Assembly: GCA_022592445.1 (NCBI GenBank)
Contig: JABYQR010000182.1
Location: 24,912-88,911 of the forward strand
Direction: 5' to 3'
DNA from: Cytidiella melzeri
Lineage: Eukaryota > Basidiomycota > Agaricomycetes > Polyporales > Irpicaceae
DNA length: 64,000 nucleotides
The notes beneath the pieces are model-generated. The model saw nothing but the letters and a program-made list of their open reading frames with translations. It was not told where the DNA came from and did no database searches. A program made the translations under genes and the position numbers. Below are positions 42,900-63,072 of the stretch, piece by piece; the first letter of the stretch is position 1, and each line of letters opens with the position of its first letter.

Positions 42900-45207
42900 T
42901 CATGGCTCAATAGGGACGCAGGTGATGTAGAGAGCATACTTCCTCTCCGCCTCCTGGAGCTTCCTCCTCTGCCTCTTTTCTTGACGACGCCTCTTCTTCT
43001 CCGCACGCTTGCGCTCGCGGCGAATGCGCTTTGCCTCCTGCAACTCCGCTAGCTGGCTCTCTGCGCCGCGACCGTACACGCCACCGTACGCACCATAGCG
43101 GCTTCGATCGTCCAAGTCGTCGTCATCATCGCTCGAGTCTCCATCAGAGTCAGAATCGTCACTCAGACTAGCGAGATCATCGAAGCCAGGGAGATGCAGC
43201 TCAACTGCACCCACCTGACGTCCCGAACGCCGCTCGCGTCCTTTGAAAAGTACTACTTCGACGCCGCGTTTGAGGAAGAACGAGGCGTTCCACAGATCCA
43301 AGAGATCGGAAGTGAGCGTCGTGCGCTTGGGAGTACGGCCGTCCCGAGCGTAGTCGGGAACCGGAAGCTTGCCAGACCAGGCAAGGGAGAGGTCCTGTGT
43401 ATCGTAGTCAGCTCACGAGCGGAGTGAGGAGTCACGACAGACAATCAGCATCAACTTACCGTCATGAGACGAATCCAATCCTCGTGGTACACATCGTGAG
43501 GAACAAGCACCAACGGCATGCGCGGGATGTTCTCGAAGAAATCATCCATGTCCTGTATTTTGAGCGTGTCAAAGCGCGTGTAGGACTGCGCGAGACTTGG
43601 AGGGCGAGAGAAGCCCTCGGGAGCTGGCATCGGAGCAGCCTCTGCACCAGGCGGCGGCGGGTAAACAGGGCCTTGAGGAGGAGTTTGAACTGGGTATTGG
43701 CCAGGGACAGGCGTACCGTATCCTGGCGCAGCAGGATAAGTAGGTTGCACTGCGTAGCCTCCTGGTGTAGCAGCGTAAGGGGAGGGGGAGGCTGGGCGGC
43801 CGATTGGTCTTCCTTCCATCACATGTCCGGGTGGGTACATCCCGGGGATTGCTCCTGCAGTTTGGTACGGGGAGTGTGACGGAGCCGGGGGAAGAACAGC
43901 GCCTGGTTGGTAAGGCGAAGCTGTCCGAGGCGCTGCAGCATACGGAGATGCAGCACGAGGAGGTGGAGCGTAAGGCGACGCGGCGCGGGGAGGAGGGCCG
44001 TAAGGCGAAGCAGCTCGAGGAGGGGGGCCATAAGGCGAAGCAGCTCGAGGAGGCGGCGCGTAGGGTGAAGCAGCACGGGGAATAGCTCCGGTCTGGGCAT
44101 ACCCTACAACAGGAGCAGCTTGATACGGCGAAATGGGACGAGGAGAAACTGGTTGTGTGCCATAGCCTGCAGCCGAATATGGCTGACCCGCAGGGGGGTA
44201 TGGTTGACCTGCAGTAGCGTATGATTGGCCCGTTGTAGGGAATGGCTGAGCAGGCGTGGTAGCGTATGGACTGGACGGAGCGTATCCAGGAGGGGCTGCT
44301 GCTGGGTATGTCCCAGAGGTGGCGGCCGGGTATCCAGTGCCTGCAGGAGCAACAGAATAACCAGCAGGCTCTCCGTACGTGGAGCCCCGGCGAGACCTCG
44401 CTTTCTCTCTGTCATATTCACGCTCCCTATCCTTGAGATCCATATCTCGGAACGATCGATCTAACTCCCGCTCGTAAGCATATCCAGAACTCTTCCTTCT
44501 GTCGTCACGCCTCTGTCGGTCTCGATCGTCGCGTTCTCTTGCACGACGAATTTCTCGTTCCAACTCGCGCTCTTCATCTCTGTCTTGCCTGCGGCGCTCT
44601 TTGTCTTCGCGACGGATTTCTTTCTCAATCTCTCGTCTGCGGCGATCCTCGTCACGTTGCCTAGTATGAAAGTATATATAGGACGATATGACGTCGCAAA
44701 ATCCGGGGGTACACACCAATCACTGTATCTTTCATCTCCAGGGCGTTGGAAGGACGCGAGAATTTCCTTTGTGATTGATCGGTATGTTGATGAGTGTTAT
44801 CAATTTTGATAGTCACACTCACAGCAGTGGCAGGTGTAGCGCCGGCGGGAATGACCGCGGTGGCTTCAGCAGGAATCCACTGGATGCCGCTCACGATGCC
44901 CTGAGGAGTCTGGTAGCTACAGCGACAGATAAGTCGTTTTGCTCAAGGCCAGCGGGATCTCATACCTTGCGGGCATTGCTCTATTCAAGGTCCGTCAGCG
45001 TGCTCAGGGTTCACGGCAGGGATGGACTCACTTGAATACATGGTGGGTGATCTGGCCATCTGGACCTTGAGAGGTCGTGTAGGTGAGAGAGCCAGGAGCG
45101 ATTTGGCCACTGGGAGGGATAGTGGGCGTCACCGCGCGCGGAACTGGCGTCGTTCCTCGATGTGGCATAATCGGCGAACTGCCGCCAATTGGGTAGTGGT
45201 AGGCCAT
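42900..45207 (-). CDS. Unknown basidiomycete protein with Pro/Ser/Tyr minisatellite repeats and charged coiled-coil
   Basis: From ATG 45207 the protein starts MAYHYPIGGSSPIM. Short exons give TYTTSQGPDGQITHHVF and YQTPQGIVSGIQWIPAEA. A strongly charged helix follows (RREIEKEIRREDKERRRQDR and on), then a Pro/Ala/Tyr/Ser-rich region with a tandem decapeptide PRAASPYAPP. A conserved-looking block DFFENIPRMPLVLVPHDVYH and EDWIRLMTDLSLAWSG comes next. The C-terminal exon holds FFLKRGVEVVLFKGRERRSG, an acidic Asp/Ser run and a Lys/Arg coiled-coil ending at 42900. The block around VPHDVYHEDW looks folded and may be the functional core. I do not recognise the family. The frame stays open through the repeats, which supports it being expressed. 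Confidence 0.7.
43901..44080 (-). repeat. 30-bp coding minisatellite, six units
   Basis: Six tandem 30-bp units encode PRAASPYAPP, PRAASPYGPP (twice), PRAASPYAPP, PRAASPYAAA and PRTASPYQPG. Differences are mostly at third positions, so the array is old enough to have diverged but selected for sequence. Confidence 0.9.
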
Positions 45208-51048: not shown

Positions 51049-51053
51049 AAACG
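51049..51053. repeat. Target-site duplication, left (AAACG)
   Basis: AAACG directly precedes the left LTR and recurs at 56467-56471 directly after the right LTR, as expected for a 5-bp copia integrase stagger. Confidence 0.88.
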
Positions 51054-51482
51054 TAATGGACTTTTGCGGCGCTACTCATGGACTTCGCCCCTATCAGACA
51101 CTCTTTTGTCTCCTGTCTCATGACTCCTTTGTAGTATGATCGCATCTTTTGTTTCATCACGCGGACACTGCCTCGTTGCCAGCTTCCTTGTAGTATATAA
51201 CCTTTTCACCCTGGTTCTCTACTCCTCCATTGTGCTCTCATCTTCGCACCTGGAGTGAGTATTCCCCCCATTGCTCTTGCGTTATGTTATATGCTCATAT
51301 GCCTGTTACCTAGTTAACTCGTCTCCGTGTGTACTAGGTACATTCTATATTCATCATTGTGCTCTCATCTTCGCACCTGGATTAACTCGTCTCCGTGTGT
51401 ACTAGGTCCCTACAGTCTGCAGTGGGTTTACAACAGCGCATCCACCTTGCCTAAGTGACTACGTTCCCTCAACTCGTCATTA
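51054..51482 (+). repeat. Left LTR (429 bp) of the copia element
   Basis: It begins TAATGGAC and ends GTCATTA, giving 5-bp inverted termini TAATG/CATTA rather than plain TG/CA. A TATATAA box is at about 51195-51201. About 30 bp downstream begins a duplicated module that carries an apparent intron (51228-51407). It is identical to the right LTR except for one base. Confidence 0.94.
51228..51407 (+). repeat. Tandem LTR leader module: copy with 59-bp GT-AG intron, then copy exactly lacking it
   Basis: Block A (27 bp, 51228-51254) is followed by a 59-bp segment (51255-51313) starting GTGAGTATT and ending TTACCTAG, then block B (26 bp, 51314-51339). After a 15-bp spacer, A (51355-51381) and B (51382-51407) recur, identical and directly joined. 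The missing segment has a perfect donor, a CTCAT branch-like site and a TAG acceptor, so the second copy looks like the spliced form. Block A starts about 30 bp after the TATA box, near the expected transcription start. The same structure is in the right LTR. Confidence 0.9.
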
Positions 51483-51494
51483 GGTTATGAGCCC
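51483..51494 (+). other. Primer-binding site matching the initiator tRNA-Met anticodon arm
   Basis: GGTTATGAGCCC directly after the left LTR is the reverse complement of GGGCTCATAACC, the anticodon stem-loop of eukaryotic initiator tRNA-Met. This indicates priming by an internal (half) tRNA site, as in Drosophila copia, not by the tRNA 3' end. The tRNA sequence is from general knowledge. Confidence 0.75.
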
Positions 51495-51603: not shown

Positions 51604-54600
51604 ATGTCCACCTCCGCCTCTGCTGGTCCCTCTGCGGCCAACTCCTCTTTTGCCTCTACCACGGCACCTCCTCTCATCAAGATCGAATCGATCGCCAAGT
51701 TGACTGGCGCTTCCAACTGGAAGACATGGAACGCTGTAATCAAGCAGTACCTTCGCGTCACCAAGTCCCTGTCCCTCATCGACGGCACCCTCACTAAGCC
51801 AGATGCTAAGGACGCCGACTACGAAAAATGGGAGATTGCTGACGCAAACGTTTCTCTCGTCCTGTTGAACACCGTTGACCCCACACTCCACCACCTCGTC
51901 GATACCGAGACCAAAACTGCTGCCGAGATCTACGCCACCTTGCATGCCAACTACTCCGCCACTACCACTCTCTCCGCTTTCCTCAAATTCAAGCAGTACT
52001 TCCTCTCTCAGATGGACGGCTCTTGCCCGTTCGTTGAGCAGATTGAGGAACGTGGTCGCTTATGGAAGGAAGTCAGTGACTCTGGCATCCTCGACAACAA
52101 GGAGCTGCTCAAGATCTTTGGCCTCCTCTCGGTCATCCCTGACTCCTTCGGCAACATTGTCGAACCCATCCTCGCTGTCACTGCCCCCAAGGACCTCAAG
52201 TATGACGACATCCGCTCGCGCCTCATTGACGAGGCTTCGCGCAAGGGATCGTCAGACGTCTCTGCTGTCCGGGCAGGCAAGCAGGCTTCTTCGGCTTCGA
52301 ACGCCAACAAGAAGAAGAAGAAGAAGTGCAACTTCTGTGGGTACACAGGTCACGTTGAGGGGGAGTGTAGGAAGAAGGCTGCTGCCTCCAAGGGCATCAA
52401 GGAGGAGAAGGAGAAAGGAAAGGGGAAGGAGTCGTCTGGTTCTACGTCGAATGGTTCCGCCGCTGTACATGTAGTTTCTGCTGAGGACCCCGAGTCCAAA
52501 GCCTCCAACGCCGCTGTTTACTGGTACACCGCTGGCTCTACGCCATGGATGCTTGATTCCGGCTGCACGAAACACATTACCAACGACATCAACGACTTCA
52601 CTGAGTACAAGGCATTTGCTACGCCGCACTTCGCTACGCTGGCAAACTCGTCTAAGACTACGATGTCTACACTTGGTTCAGGTCGCGTGTCTGGCACCAC
52701 AACCATCGACGGAAGGCAGCTCACAGTGCAGCTTGACAACGTCTTGTACTGCCCGAGCATCGCTGAACGCATGATTGCTATCTCCTGCCTTGATTCCAAG
52801 GGATTCTCCACTGTCTTTTCAGACGGGGGAGCTCGGATCTATAAAGAAAACAAAACCTACGGCTTAGGTTCTCTCAGGGGCGGCCAGTATTGGTTGGAAC
52901 TCACCATTTCAACTCCAAACGTCGCCTCCTCCACGCACTCTGCCACTGCTCCCATTGACCTCGTTCACCAACGCTTCGGTCATCTCAACTTCGAAGCCCT
53001 TCAAAAGCTACGTTCTGAAGACTCTTCTGTCAAGGGACTGGCTCTCAGCGAGGCCCCTCGTTCCGAACACGTCTGCGAGGGCTGTGCTTTGGGAAAGCAG
53101 CATAGGCGACCCTTCCCTCCATCCTCCACTCCTCGTGCATCTCGACCATTCGACCTCATTCACACTGATCTTGCCGGTCCCATGCAGACCGCGTCTATCA
53201 ACGGCGGAAATCTGTACATGCTCGCGTACATCGATGACTGCACCGACGACGTCTGGGTGTACTTTCTTAAACACAAAGACAAGCAAGAACAGAGGTTCGA
53301 GGACTTCCGCGCTATGGTCAAGACACAGTTTGGTTGCGACATCAAGATCCTCCGCTCCGACAGGGGGGGAGAATACCAGTCGAAGAGATTCATTCAACGG
53401 CTGAAGGATCTTGGTATAATCCACCAACGCACAACCCCTGACACGCCCCAACAGAATGGCAAAGCTGAGCGCTACAACCGTACGATTGTCGAATCTGCGA
53501 AAGCCATGCTCCATGCTGCAGGGTTGTCCAAGGGATTCTGGGAGGAAGCTGTGAAGACAGCTGTGCACGTTCGTAATCGGGCTCCTAAGAAGTCCTTGAA
53601 CTGGAGGACACCATACGAGAAACTCACAGGCGCACCACCGGATGTATCCTACTTCCGTGTGTTTGGCTGCCTGGCCTATCGCCTCATCCACAAGGATCAT
53701 CGACGGAAGTTGGAGCCTAACGCTCAACCTCTTGTCTTTGTTGGGTATGAAGCGGGTTCTAAAGGTTACCGCCTCTGGGACAAACATACCCATAAGATTG
53801 TTGCGAGTACAGACGTAGTATTCGACGAAACAGTCTTTCCTAACCGTCCTAACTCTACACCCCCGCGTTCGAGCGCACCTCAACCAACACCGCCCACTTC
53901 CTTCGAACTTGAAACTCCATCCTTTCACACGCCCTCTCAGCAGCCGGCTACTATCGCGCCACATGTGCCTACCACTCAGCAACTGCCTCCTCTCAGCGCA
54001 CCATCTACGGACGTTCGTATGGAACGGACACCATCCTCGCAGATGCCGTCACAGATACCGCGCCCCTCTTCCACTCCTCGACCATCCACGCCAGCCACAC
54101 CTTCACCATACCCTAGCATCTCGCAGGGCAAAGGAAAGGCACCAGATCAGTTCTTCACGCCGAAGACTGAATTCTCATCCTCACCGTCCAGACCAACCCC
54201 TTCGTTGTCTCGAGTTGTAGAATCACCCAAAGTCGAACCAAATCCCAATCGTCCCTCAGCACACGACTATCTGCCCATATCGAATCCTGCTCATCAGCTT
54301 CCCCGCCGCACTACGCGCGAACAGAAGCGACTGGATTCCATCTGGCAGGCAGCAAGTGAGGATGATGTTCAACGGGCTACACAATCTCGAGGCAACAAGC
54401 TCCCTTACAACCGCAAAAACCGAGCAGCAGCAGTCCTCGCAGACGAAGCTGACTTAGTCCTAGCGGCAGCTGTAACACCTCAGGGGGAGCCTCGTTCATA
54501 CAGACAGGCTATGGGTTCTGAGGACAAGGATGACTGGTACGCGGCAATGGAGACTGAATTCAAAGGTCTCCAGGATTCAGGAACGTGGGACCTCGTCGAT

Positions 54601-55044
54601 TTACCTCAAGGTCGCAAGGCGATTAAGAGTAAATGGGTATACAAGCTCAAACTCGACAAGGACGGCAATGTTGACCGTTTCAAGGCACGGCTGGTAGCTA
54701 AAGGATTTGAGCAAATTCAAGGCATCGACTACGAAGACACCTTTGCTCCCGTCGCCCGTCTGGAATCTTGGCGATATCTCGTCGCCCTGGCAGCCACTCT
54801 AGACTGGGAAATCCACCAAATCGACTTCCATCAGGCGTATTTGAACGGATCTTTGGACGAGGAGGTTTATATGGAGCAACCTGAAGGCTTCGTGGTGGCC
54901 GAAGGCAAAGTATGTCGCCTTCGGAAAGCAATCTATGGCCTCAAGCAAGCAGGACGCCAATGGTTCCTCACGCTAAAGGCATGCCTCGAACAACTTGGAT
55001 TCACCTGTCATGACACTGGTGACGTCTCTATTTTTGTTCGTTGA
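51604..55044 (+). CDS. Copia Gag-Pol polyprotein: Gag, protease, integrase and N-terminal reverse transcriptase
   Basis: The reading frame of 1146 codons ends at an in-frame TGA. Gag has a copia-type N-terminal domain (LTGASNWKTWNAVIKQYL) and a CCHC knuckle CNFCGYTGHVEGEC at residues 242-255. The protease has DSG with Asp318. The pre-integrase HHCC zinc region reads HQRFGHLNFEALQKL ... CEGCALGKQHR. The integrase core has Asp522, Asp586 and Glu622 in DD35E spacing (HTDLAGP, DRGGEYQS, NGKAERYNRT). A Pro/Ser/Thr-rich linker follows (residues ~750-920). The reverse transcriptase starts DDWYAAMETEFKGLQDSGTW and contains KARLVAKGFEQIQGIDY and QIDFHQAYLNG. The TGA falls 11 codons before the catalytic YVDD. 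Gag and Pol share one frame, so no frameshift is needed. Confidence 0.93.
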   Translation: MSTSASAGPSAANSSFASTTAPPLIKIESIAKLTGASNWKTWNAVIKQYLRVTKSLSLIDGTLTKPDAKDADYEKWEIADANVSLVLLNTVDPTLHHLVDTETKTAAEIYATLHANYSATTTLSAFLKFKQYFLSQMDGSCPFVEQIEERGRLWKEVSDSGILDNKELLKIFGLLSVIPDSFGNIVEPILAVTAPKDLKYDDIRSRLIDEASRKGSSDVSAVRAGKQASSASNANKKKKKKCNFCGYTGHVEGECRKKAAASKGIKEEKEKGKGKESSGSTSNGSAAVHVVSAEDPESKASNAAVYWYTAGSTPWMLDSGCTKHITNDINDFTEYKAFATPHFATLANSSKTTMSTLGSGRVSGTTTIDGRQLTVQLDNVLYCPSIAERMIAISCLDSKGFSTVFSDGGARIYKENKTYGLGSLRGGQYWLELTISTPNVASSTHSATAPIDLVHQRFGHLNFEALQKLRSEDSSVKGLALSEAPRSEHVCEGCALGKQHRRPFPPSSTPRASRPFDLIHTDLAGPMQTASINGGNLYMLAYIDDCTDDVWVYFLKHKDKQEQRFEDFRAMVKTQFGCDIKILRSDRGGEYQSKRFIQRLKDLGIIHQRTTPDTPQQNGKAERYNRTIVESAKAMLHAAGLSKGFWEEAVKTAVHVRNRAPKKSLNWRTPYEKLTGAPPDVSYFRVFGCLAYRLIHKDHRRKLEPNAQPLVFVGYEAGSKGYRLWDKHTHKIVASTDVVFDETVFPNRPNSTPPRSSAPQPTPPTSFELETPSFHTPSQQPATIAPHVPTTQQLPPLSAPSTDVRMERTPSSQMPSQIPRPSSTPRPSTPATPSPYPSISQGKGKAPDQFFTPKTEFSSSPSRPTPSLSRVVESPKVEPNPNRPSAHDYLPISNPAHQLPRRTTREQKRLDSIWQAASEDDVQRATQSRGNKLPYNRKNRAAAVLADEADLVLAAAVTPQGEPRSYRQAMGSEDKDDWYAAMETEFKGLQDSGTWDLVDLPQGRKAIKSKWVYKLKLDKDGNVDRFKARLVAKGFEQIQGIDYEDTFAPVARLESWRYLVALAATLDWEIHQIDFHQAYLNGSLDEEVYMEQPEGFVVAEGKVCRLRKAIYGLKQAGRQWFLTLKACLEQLGFTCHDTGDVSIFVR

Positions 55045-56040
55045 CGAGGGGGAGACCTCGAAATTCTCGTTGTTTACGTCGACGATCTTACCATGATGGG
55101 CAACAGCATCGCTCTGCTGAAGGAAACGAAGACCGCGCTTCGCTCGCACTTCGAACTCAAGGACTTGGGGGAACTCAAGCACTATCTCGCTATCCGCGTC
55201 ACTAGGGATAGGGGGAGCCGCCGCATATACCTGGACCAGGAGGTATACATCAACAATGTTCTCAAGCGCTTCGGACATGAGGACACAAATCCTGCGTCAA
55301 CACCTCTCCCAACAGGTATCAAGTTGGAGAAGAACGAAGAGGATCCTTCACAATGCGATCCAAAACTCATTCATGAATACCGCAGTCTTCTTGGCTCCCT
55401 TATGTATGCCATGCTCGGTACTCGCCCTGATATTGCCTTTGCAGTCGCTCGACTTTGTCAATATCAGTCAAACCCCACGCAGTCTCATCTCAAGGCTGCA
55501 AAACACGTCCTTCGCTACCTCCGTGGCACATCCTCCCTCCGACTCTGTCTAGGCCACAGTGACACTCGAGAAGATCAAATTGTTGGATACACCGACAACT
55601 CTCTCTCAACCTCAGGCTGGGCCTTCTTCCTCGGCAATGGAGCTGTATGCTGGTCATCTCGCAAGCAGCAGTCTGTTGCCAAATCCACCTTCGACTCTGA
55701 GTACTACGCAGCACACGAAGCCTGCGAACAACTCAAATGGCTGAATGACTTGGCAGACCAAATCGACATCCCTCTCAACCTTCCTATCACGCTTTATTGC
55801 GACAACAAGAGTGCTGTCGATGCTTCGAAATCTCCAAATGTCAAACACCGCTCAAAACATACCCGAGTCAAGGCGCACGCAGTACACAAATGCTTCAACG
55901 AAGGCCTTGTCGAACTGATTCGAATCCCTGGAACCGATAATCCTGCTGACATCTTTACGAAGCCACTTCCTCATGATGTTCACGCTCGACATTGCAAGGC
56001 TCTTGGACTCGTCCAGTATCGTCTCGCCGAGGGGGAGTAA
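55045..56040 (+). pseudogene. Copia polyprotein continuation: C-terminal reverse transcriptase and RNase H, downstream of a premature TGA
   Basis: This is in the same frame as the upstream part, separated only by the TGA at 55042-55044. It starts with the YVDD active-site segment (VVYVDDL), then LKHYLAIRVTRDRG, a thumb/connection region (YRSLLGSLMYAMLGTRPDIA), and RNase H motifs GYTDNSLSTSGWAFFLG, SKQQSVAKST-like and DSEYYAAHEACEQLKWL. The end is PGTDNPADIFTKPLP and a TAA whose three bases are also the first three of the right LTR (56038-56040). It would be made only by readthrough. Confidence 0.88.
56029..56037 (+). other. Polypurine tract of the copia element
   Basis: GAGGGGGAG lies immediately before the right LTR and primes plus-strand synthesis. 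It also encodes the last residues (EGE) of the polyprotein. Confidence 0.85.
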
Positions 56041-56466
56041 TGGACTTTTGCGGCGCTACTCATGGACTTCGCCCCTATCAGACACTCTTTTGTCTCCTGT
56101 CTCATGACTCCTTTGTAGTATGATCGCATCTTTTGTTTCATCACGCGGACACTGCCTCGTTGCCAGCTTCCTTGTAGTATATAACCTTTTCACCCTGGTT
56201 CTCTACTCCTCCATTGTGCTCTCATCTTCGCACCTGGAGTGAGTATTCCCCCCATTGCTCTTGCGTTATGTTATATGCTCATATGCCTGTTACCTAGTTA
56301 ACTCGTCTCCGTGTGTACTAGGTACATTCTATATTCATCATTGTGCTCTCATCTTCGCACCTGGATTAACTCGTCTCCGTGTGTACTAGGTCCCTACAGT
56401 CTGCAGTGGGTTTACGACAGCGCATCCACCTTGCCTAAGTGACTACGTTCCCTCAACTCGTCATTA
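56038..56466 (+). repeat. Right LTR (429 bp) of the copia element
   Basis: It is identical to the left LTR except for G in place of A in the run TTTACGACAG. It contains the same duplicated leader module (56212-56391) with and without the 59-bp intron. The TSD AAACG follows at 56467-56471. Confidence 0.94.
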
Positions 56467-56471
56467 AAACG
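56467..56471. repeat. Target-site duplication, right (AAACG)
   Basis: This is the second copy of the 5-bp duplication flanking the copia element. Confidence 0.88.
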
Positions 56472-60162: not shown

Positions 60163-60257
60163 GGGTAACTGTCAAGAACCGGAGTAACTGTCAAGGACCT
60201 GAGTAACTGTCAAGGACCAGGGTAACTGTCAAGGACCTGAGTAACTGTCAAGGACCA
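60163..60257. repeat. Five 19-bp tandem repeats in the presumed gypsy LTR
   Basis: Units of the type GAGTAACTGTCAAGGACCT/A repeat five times without gaps, the first unit slightly diverged. Downstream (60268-60380) the motif AGAACAATAG recurs several times. Both arrays lie in the region expected to be the 3' LTR of the minus-strand gypsy element. Confidence 0.85.
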
Positions 60258-60594
60258 GGGTACGTAGAACAATAGAGCTAGAACAATACAACAATAGAAC
60301 AATAGGATAAGAACAATAGAACAATAAGACCTGGGGGAATCCCTGGGGAATCCCCATCAATGGAAGAGGAACAATAGAACAATAGCCTAGGTTGATCTGG
60401 AACCGCTCCAGACTGAGTCTAGGGTTTGGGTCTGGACTATTGATAAATAAGGCAGGATGTCACGTGACCCAGGTTAGGGTTAGGTCCGGTAACACTCCTA
60501 GCCGGAAAATAAGCGCTCTAGATAGGCGCCTAAGGCTATAAACTTGTGACAATATTGGAAAAATCCGGTCTCTGTTGGACTATCCATGTCATTA

Positions 60595-61608: not shown

Positions 61609-63072
61609 TCAGGGAATACCATGGAGCCTGAAAACTTCTTTGATGTGTAGGTCGGCTATGCCATCCGCTGTAACAGTAGACTGGGTCGGGATTACATGAC
61701 TTTGTTTGCTATACAAGTCTGTGTATACTGCAATCATGTCAAATCCATTGCTTCGTGGAAGGGGTCCGACTAAGTCTACGCCAACCACCTGCCAGGGTCC
61801 CTCTGGTACTTCAATGGGCTGTATCGGAACGACAGGATGCTGCGCCGGTTTGGCTCGCTGACATTTGTCACATCCGAGTACGTACTGCTCTACAAAGGAT
61901 GCCATGCGAGGCCACCAATAATGCTGTGTGACTAGTTCCAGGGTTGCATGTTTGCCAGGATGTCCTGCCGGTAACGCATCATGACATCGTCGTACAATTT
62001 CCCGGCGAACTTCGCGATCCTTCGGAATGTATAGCTTCCCTTTGTAGTACACCAGTCCATTGTCTTCCTCCCACTCAAGTCCACCATCGGTCAACTTCCG
62101 GGGTCCATCCTTCCTAAGCTTGGCTAGTCCCTGGACTACCTCTGCTTCTCGAATGCTGATATCCTTAATCCGTGACTCTAACGGATCAGGTTCCGGGGTA
62201 CTCGAGGCGGCTATTGTCTGGAAGTATTCGGGTTTCAGTACAACTTGTTCCTTGTTGTCTGATGCATCTAGAACTTCCAAGGTTCTGACCCGGGATAATG
62301 GGTCGCCTTGAGTGAGGGTCTTTCCGGGTTTGTGCATTAAAACAAAGTCAAACCGGCTCAGATACAAAGACCACCGAGCTTGTCGTCTGGACAAGTCCTG
62401 AGCGGTACGCCAGTACTGCAAATTCTGATGATCTGTGATGATCTCGAAGGGCGCGGGTAATCCTTCCAGATAATGACGCCAATCTTCAAGAGCTCTGATG
62501 ATAGCAAGCATTTCTCGATCATAGATCTCGTAGTTCCGTTCCGCTTCGGCCATAGACTGAGACCGAAACGCTACCGGGTGCCATTGTCCATCCTCTAGTT
62601 TCTGCAACAGAACTCCTCCAGTCGCAAAGCCAGACGCATCAACTTCAATACGTGTGGGGCGATCGGGTTCCCATGTGACTAGAATAGGTTCCTGAGTGAA
62701 CGCATCTTTGAGCATCTGAAAGGCGTTCTGCTGTGCTTCTCCCCACTTCCAAGGTTGGTCCTTCTTGGTGAGATCGTGGAGGGGACGAGTATGCCGTGCA
62801 AAGTCCTTGATGAAACGTCGGTAGAAGTTGGCAAATCCAATGAAGCCTCGTACATCACGGAGGTTCTGTGGTACCGGCCAGTTGGTGATAGCTTCTATTT
62901 TACCCGAGTCCATACGGATCTTTCCGTTACCGATGATTAAACCTAGATACTCGACTTGTGACTGTTCAAATTCGCATTTTTCGGGGCGAAGATACAAGTC
63001 GTTGGCTTCAAGTCGAGATAGTATCAATTTTCCGGTGTTCCACAATGTCTGAACTGAAGACAAGGATGTCAT
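61609..63072 (-). pseudogene. Gypsy RT thumb, RNase H and integrase N-terminal half
   Basis: This is open from about the frameshift to the TGA at 61609. RT connection: YLRPEKCEFEQSQVEYLGLI, FIGFANFYRRFIKDFA. RNase H: IEVDASGFATGGVL, YEIYDREMLAIIRALEDWRH, ITDHQNLQYW. Integrase zinc HHCC: HDALPAGHPGKHATLELV and CDKCQRAKP. Catalytic first Asp in VGVDLVGPLPRSNGFD. It ends FRLHGIP before the stop, where related elements continue without interruption. Confidence 0.9.

Follow-up and report, generated by a model that had tools for sequence, protein, structure and literature searches.

The window (the whole stretch of 64,000 nucleotides of Cytidiella melzeri DNA that was analysed) contains a Ty1/copia LTR retrotransposon, with gag, integrase and RVT_2 domains and paired LTRs bounded by a target site duplication. 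The domains are arranged as copia-type gag, integrase, and then the RVT_2 reverse transcriptase (Pfam); this order, the LTRs and the 5-bp target duplication are shared with Ty1/copia elements. The duplication AAACG was read from the sequence at 51049-51053 on the 5' side, with its partner at 56467-56471. The 5' LTR is 429 bp long (51054-51482, plus strand, TAATGG...CATTA), and is followed by a primer binding site motif GGTTATGAGCCC at 51483-51494. This putative site is presumably of the half initiator-tRNA type, which we take to be a further likeness to Ty1/copia. The Gag-integrase-RT frame occupies 51604-55041 on the plus strand (translation, Pfam). An in-frame TGA (55042-55044) interrupts the reverse transcriptase of the window copy, and the frame continues at 55045-56037 with the remaining part of the domain (RVT_2 positions 163-242) and downstream sequence. 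The 3' LTR lies at 56038-56466. A second retroelement, carrying an RNase H domain and an integrase zinc-binding domain (Pfam), is located on the minus strand at 61612-63072, and short tandem repeats lie near it at 60165-60326. Another tandem repeat, with a 30-bp unit and about 4.4 copies, is found at 43950-44081 inside a long minus-strand open frame.

Both LTRs have the order U3 - A1 - intron - B1 - x - A2 - B2 - U5. In the 5' LTR (all on the plus strand), the TATA box TATATAA is at 51194-51200, and its first base lies 34 bp upstream of A1. Block A1 (27 bp, 51228-51254) would contain the RNA start, placed from the TATA distance only, and the first exon block. It is followed by the 59-nt predicted intron (51255-51313, GTGAGT...CCTAG) with the branch-site-like CTCAT at 51294-51298, and by the second exon block B1 (26 bp, 51314-51339). 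The segment x (51340-51354) includes 13 fairly constant nucleotides and, as the comparison of copies showed, a hypervariable junction before A2. Block A2 (27 bp, 51355-51381) is identical to A1, B2 (26 bp, 51382-51407) is identical to B1, and A2 joins B2 at the splice borders. The LTR remainder (51408-51482) is called U5 as a label only, the RNA 3' end being predicted. The duplicated blocks, the gap with its borders and branch-like site, and the presence of the pair in both LTRs confirm what was originally described, including its coordinates. A2-B2 is the exact splice product of A1-intron-B1, joined precisely at the GT...AG borders, and the A-B joint is unambiguous, since its position cannot be shifted by even one base. 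Over 51053-51431 the LTRs are identical to each other, and the whole A/gap/B/x/A/B arrangement recurs at +4984, at 56212-56391 of the 3' LTR.

Copies of the paired layout in the genome

Both joints were searched in the 49.7-Mb assembly (731 contigs), allowing at most 3 mismatches. There were 200 matches to the unspliced joint A|GTGAGTATT, of which 100 are among the matches listed, and 51 to the spliced joint, whereas the control patterns of both joints, read backwards, gave 0 matches in the genome at the same threshold; the layout is therefore not due to chance. The copies belong to two subfamilies with a common layout: that of the window (subfamily 1) and a diverged 'CTTTCGC' subfamily (subfamily 2), with 73% identity in the one stretch aligned. 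Relatives of the element were looked for in viral contigs, and none were found.

An intron module followed by a spliced module was present at 60 of the 72 parsed LTR sites, from both subfamilies; these sites were chosen for carrying one of the two joints, and such fractions do not describe a random sample. The other 12 sites include five with the spliced module only, one triple-module LTR (C114:54402, the sole one among the 72), one double LTR, and five labelled I or I?. Among the latter, C255, C375 and the 5' LTR of C414 have a single module with the intron, C206 is truncated, and C472 is interrupted directly after A2. Both LTRs are spliced-only in three elements (C378, C39 and C135). Intron-only single modules were found at two places in subfamily 2 and one in subfamily 1, where C223 and C358 (AAA before B) were left out of the reading of the matches. 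In a U3-anchored search of subfamily 2 (≤3 mismatches), U3 was directly followed by the spliced joint at 6 of 92 places; reading onward covered one C135 LTR among these six. Single-module LTRs, which had been expected as ancestral states, do exist; however, both subfamilies have them, and deletion between the repeats could produce them, so that they are not read as the ancestor. For example, C414 has an intron-only 5' LTR and a paired 3' LTR, which indicates that deletion between the B repeats occurs too.

Several other arrangements were observed around the copies. At C645:151257, a subfamily-1 LTR adjoins a subfamily-2 LTR, with two paired layouts side by side. At C96:14680-20260, the primer-site motif and internal sequence follow both LTRs, which suggests a tandem array of elements. 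In the LTR at C56:75178-78605, a 137-bp unit from the U3 start is amplified seven times in tandem (1797-2755 of the locus), and extra copies of this unit lie beside the C379, C3, C648, C217 and C690 copies. Three loci with the primer-site motif (L120-L122) showed no paired layout within the 281-282 bases read.

The predicted intron and RNA start

The paired copies were compared in a 61-row table, which was made without the double LTR C645, the truncated C206, the interrupted C472 and all single-module LTRs. Five partner LTRs (C93, C24, C39, C727 and C6) were dropped from the permutation, allele, junction, tree and intron counts. The 59-bp gap looks like a host intron, in that the donor, the branch-like site and the TAG have been kept while the interior diverged, and splicing is predicted from these signals. 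In both subfamilies together, the donor GTGAGT is present in 55 of 56 rows, the final TAG in 54 of 56 and TGCTNAY in all 56; the length is 57-60. When one copy per subfamily was compared, the first ten bases, the ATATGCTCA stretch and the TAG end agreed, and the interior was diverged. The GT..AG borders, the branch-like site, and the host-like length and donor are those of a spliceosomal intron, the host sample being five introns read by hand; the A2-B2 copy in the DNA points indirectly to its removal from RNA. These are from three window genes (Pfam), namely an aminotransferase, which is taken for ALA synthase, an XRN and a forkhead gene; an automatic scan gave noise. All five have a GTRNGT donor, and the four measured are 56-76 nt long.

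Such borders also bear on the order of events. When the layout first arose, the 59 bp might have entered module 1 of an older tandem A-B-x-A-B, by insertion or intron gain. This course is nevertheless considered very improbable: there is no border duplication, the borders are spliceosomal, the 59 bp is present in both subfamilies, and A-B-x-A-B without the intron was not found as a stand-alone LTR in either of them (≤3 mismatches). The single exact match to A-B-x-A-B sits within the C114 triple.

All three ATGs in the LTR part of the window leader fall inside the intron. In shuffles of the window copy, at least three intronic ATGs occurred in 2.5%, and an exonic LTR leader with 0 ATG in 9%. 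In subfamily 2, the intron has two ATGs, but a further ATG is exonic in 22 of 23 rows, and the remaining row has two exonic ATGs; the upstream-ATG argument for splicing is therefore weak. A hairpin was also noted at 51307-51321/51326-51340, in which the intron end TACCTAG pairs with the B1/x border CTAGGTA, and which would enclose the intron acceptor. Subfamily 2 has, by eye, GTACCT/AGGTAC where the hairpin arms of subfamily 1 sit. The RNA folding of the leader was unremarkable (z -0.97).

Of the 31 scorable rows of subfamily 1, 30 have the TATA box 34 bp upstream of A1, and in all four scorable rows of subfamily 2 it lies 30 bp upstream; the 21 other rows have too short an upstream sequence and are outside this count. 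Only one TATA-like box was found in the LTR, before A1, and no TATA-like string is present 22-45 bp upstream of A2 in any of the 56 rows.

Concerted modules and the variable junction before A2

The two modules evolve in concert in both subfamilies. With the first base of A omitted, the non-majority variants shared by the modules numbered 18 in subfamily 1 (33 rows; permuted mean 5.2) and 23 in subfamily 2 (22 rows; permuted mean 11.6), and 0 of 20,000 permutations reached the observed count in either subfamily. One further row, C133 with a length change, was dropped from this test and from the counts of shared and different sites. For the B allele CTCTGC/CTTCGC, the modules agree in 22 of 22 scorable rows, and each allele is found with either base directly 3' of B2. 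Private changes also occur in both modules: in C656:82606 the initial base of B is altered from T to A, and the C6 element has two changes in A. Against such concert, many variants are found in one module only. The non-CpG variants in one module versus those shared were 17 versus 10 in subfamily 1 and 5 versus 12 in subfamily 2, and the CpG variants were 34 versus 8 and 18 versus 11, respectively. We read the one-module variants as probable post-insertion changes.

The two borders of the modules differ in their variability. All 56 rows have CTC directly before A1, and A1 itself begins with C in 55 of them, whereas the border of A2 varies by 1-3 nt. The strings made of x plus the junction were of 9 kinds in the 33 rows of subfamily 1 and of 8 kinds in the 23 rows of subfamily 2. 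Five junction types (T, TA, A, G and TG) remain in subfamily 2 if differences inside x, as well as one row displaced by a length change, are disregarded. Exact patterns of this subfamily were found across the genome at 30 (TA), 22 (T) and 39 (A) places. From these 91 places, 17 LTR pairs at element spacing were obtained, one of which (C96) may belong to a tandem array; the junction agrees in 16 of the 17 (chance rate 0.35; the sole discordant pair is C175), which indicates that these bases are fixed no later than insertion. Moreover, C132, C217 and C63 are identical over 168 compared columns (U3, intron and U5), yet their junctions are A, T and G.

On the trees, at least 9 junction changes are needed in subfamily 1 and 11 in subfamily 2, against at least 6 changes of the B allele; the trees are weak, with no starred branch, and therefore these event counts are rough. 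In subfamily 1, two junction forms account for 25 of 33 rows, and a clade of 11 rows has one of these forms throughout; renewal of the junction is therefore slower in this subfamily and does not accompany every transposition.

The homology of A2 starts about where the RNA start is predicted. Variation is concentrated at x|A2 rather than at U3|A1, and the 5' end of the RNA therefore seems to come to lie at A2, even though the TATA box precedes A1. Judged from its sequence, the junction would look like bases added to the end of strong-stop DNA and then sealed by strand transfer.

These patterns bear on the origin that had been proposed, in which spliced leader RNA was reverse-transcribed, joined once to an unspliced copy by template switching, and inherited as a fixed pair, so that the modules would be similar through recency or DNA gene conversion. 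The segment x is equal in length in the two subfamilies and has 9 of 13 matches between them (0.2% of shuffles), which suggests that the layout as such may have arisen once, and change between the repeats does happen, as in C414 with its single 5' LTR and double 3' LTR. However, gene conversion would not leave x|A2 the most variable border and U3|A1 fixed, and a single capture with simple inheritance is considered quite unlikely. The spliced copy looks instead like a reverse transcript of the 5' end of spliced RNA that has been renewed repeatedly; the variants shared by the modules, the junction differences among near-identical copies, and the presence of this layout in a diverged subfamily argue for such renewal. 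The original prediction is thus partly supported: module 2 appears to copy the 5' end of spliced RNA, with a border like that of strand transfer, but these same observations speak against one fixed event. The proposed origin seems right in kind and too static.

A proposed replication cycle and its relation to known retroelements

The best reading, to which we give a probability of about 60%, is that transcription starts at A1, host splicing acts on the leader, and the spliced leader rewrites module 2 with a new junction. From the predicted start at A1, the host spliceosome would take out the intron, and reverse transcription of the spliced leader would proceed as far as the 5' end of the RNA, where 1-3 bases would often be added. 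The A-B-U5 cDNA would then land on the pre-spliced A2-B2 of the 3' LTR. Such a landing would restore A1-intron-B1-x upstream, and A2-B2 would be renewed from the A1-B1 of the parent and given a new junction. In this way, the pre-spliced copy would act as a landing pad that lets an intron in the repeated LTR end survive transposition. This cycle would explain intron survival, concerted change and the junction jointly. As originally suggested, leader splicing might also keep genomic RNA apart from mRNA.

The proposed cycle would require that the 3' copy of the intron stays in the RNA. It would also require that the 5' leader loses x-A2-B2, and so changes from A-B-x-A-B-U5 to A-B-U5, which is its least certain step. 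The triple-module C114 would be the expected outcome when this loss fails. There are two candidate routes for the shortening: a second splice from the B1 end to the B2 end, or slippage of the reverse transcriptase across the A-B repeat. For the second splice, AG|GT is present at both ends and TTAAC is a possible branch site. However, its donor GTACAT/GTACAG has no +5 G, which is present in 5 of 5 host introns; this second intron is therefore kept as a candidate. Alternatively, GTAC may be conserved at the B1/x border because of the hairpin with the intron end.

A different arrangement would have two RNA starts: genomic RNA from A2, with x|A2 as an ordinary U3/R border, and a separate spliced mRNA from A1, with occasional capture homogenising the modules. 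It accounts for the variable x|A2, the near-invariant U3|A1 and a stable module number without a shortened leader, and the clade-wise junctions of subfamily 1 match rare capture. There is also a precedent in the barley copia element BARE, which has two TATA boxes and keeps the pool of translated RNA apart from that of packaged RNA (PMC3735527). On the other hand, the region 22-45 bp before A2 is without a TATA-like string in 56 of 56 rows; each capture should yield a triple-module intermediate, which was seen once in 72 parsed sites (C114:54402); and concerted change requires frequent capture. Two starts are therefore regarded as rather unlikely. As to the reading with a single start at A1, its fuller form is held tentatively, at somewhat below even odds: the element may keep an intron in its terminal redundancy through a pre-spliced landing site that is rewritten repeatedly, perhaps with almost each transposition in subfamily 2, so that the start and the transfer border are offset by one module.

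Compared with other Ty1/copia elements, the window element adds a complete LTR-leader intron and a pre-spliced copy of the leader. In foamy viruses, the major splice donor is in R, upstream of the poly(A) signal (PMC3694450). In the window element, the donor would likewise be inside the repeated end, as it lies 3' of the predicted RNA start in both LTRs; the portion of the foamy virus paper bearing on the donor has no mention of an R acceptor or a spliced duplicate (PMC3694450). In BARE, the spliced RNA is translated and the unspliced RNA is packaged; the splice alters the Gag-protease reading frame, and its authors argue that the spliced RNA is not replicated (PMC3735527). Both are copia elements with RNA splicing, which is predicted here; in the window element, the spliced leader sequence is present in the LTR. 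At the U3-R junction of HIV-1, short base changes occur at the border of strong-stop transfer, and with the wild type >96% have the original junction (PMC12172438). The same kind of border varies in both; the changes are minor in HIV-1, whereas several forms are common here.

No description of a complete LTR intron beside its own spliced copy was recognised in open PubMed Central papers. The paired layout is a new form of copia LTR architecture, and its replication mechanism is testable. An intron in the repeated end of a retroelement should vanish whenever spliced RNA is copied; nevertheless, this intron persists in two diverged subfamilies, beside a spliced record of itself. If the pre-spliced copy is indeed a landing pad, it would represent a new way for a retroelement to exploit host splicing and yet keep its intron, and the genome would preserve, in legible form, the first-strand-transfer junctions of many earlier insertions.
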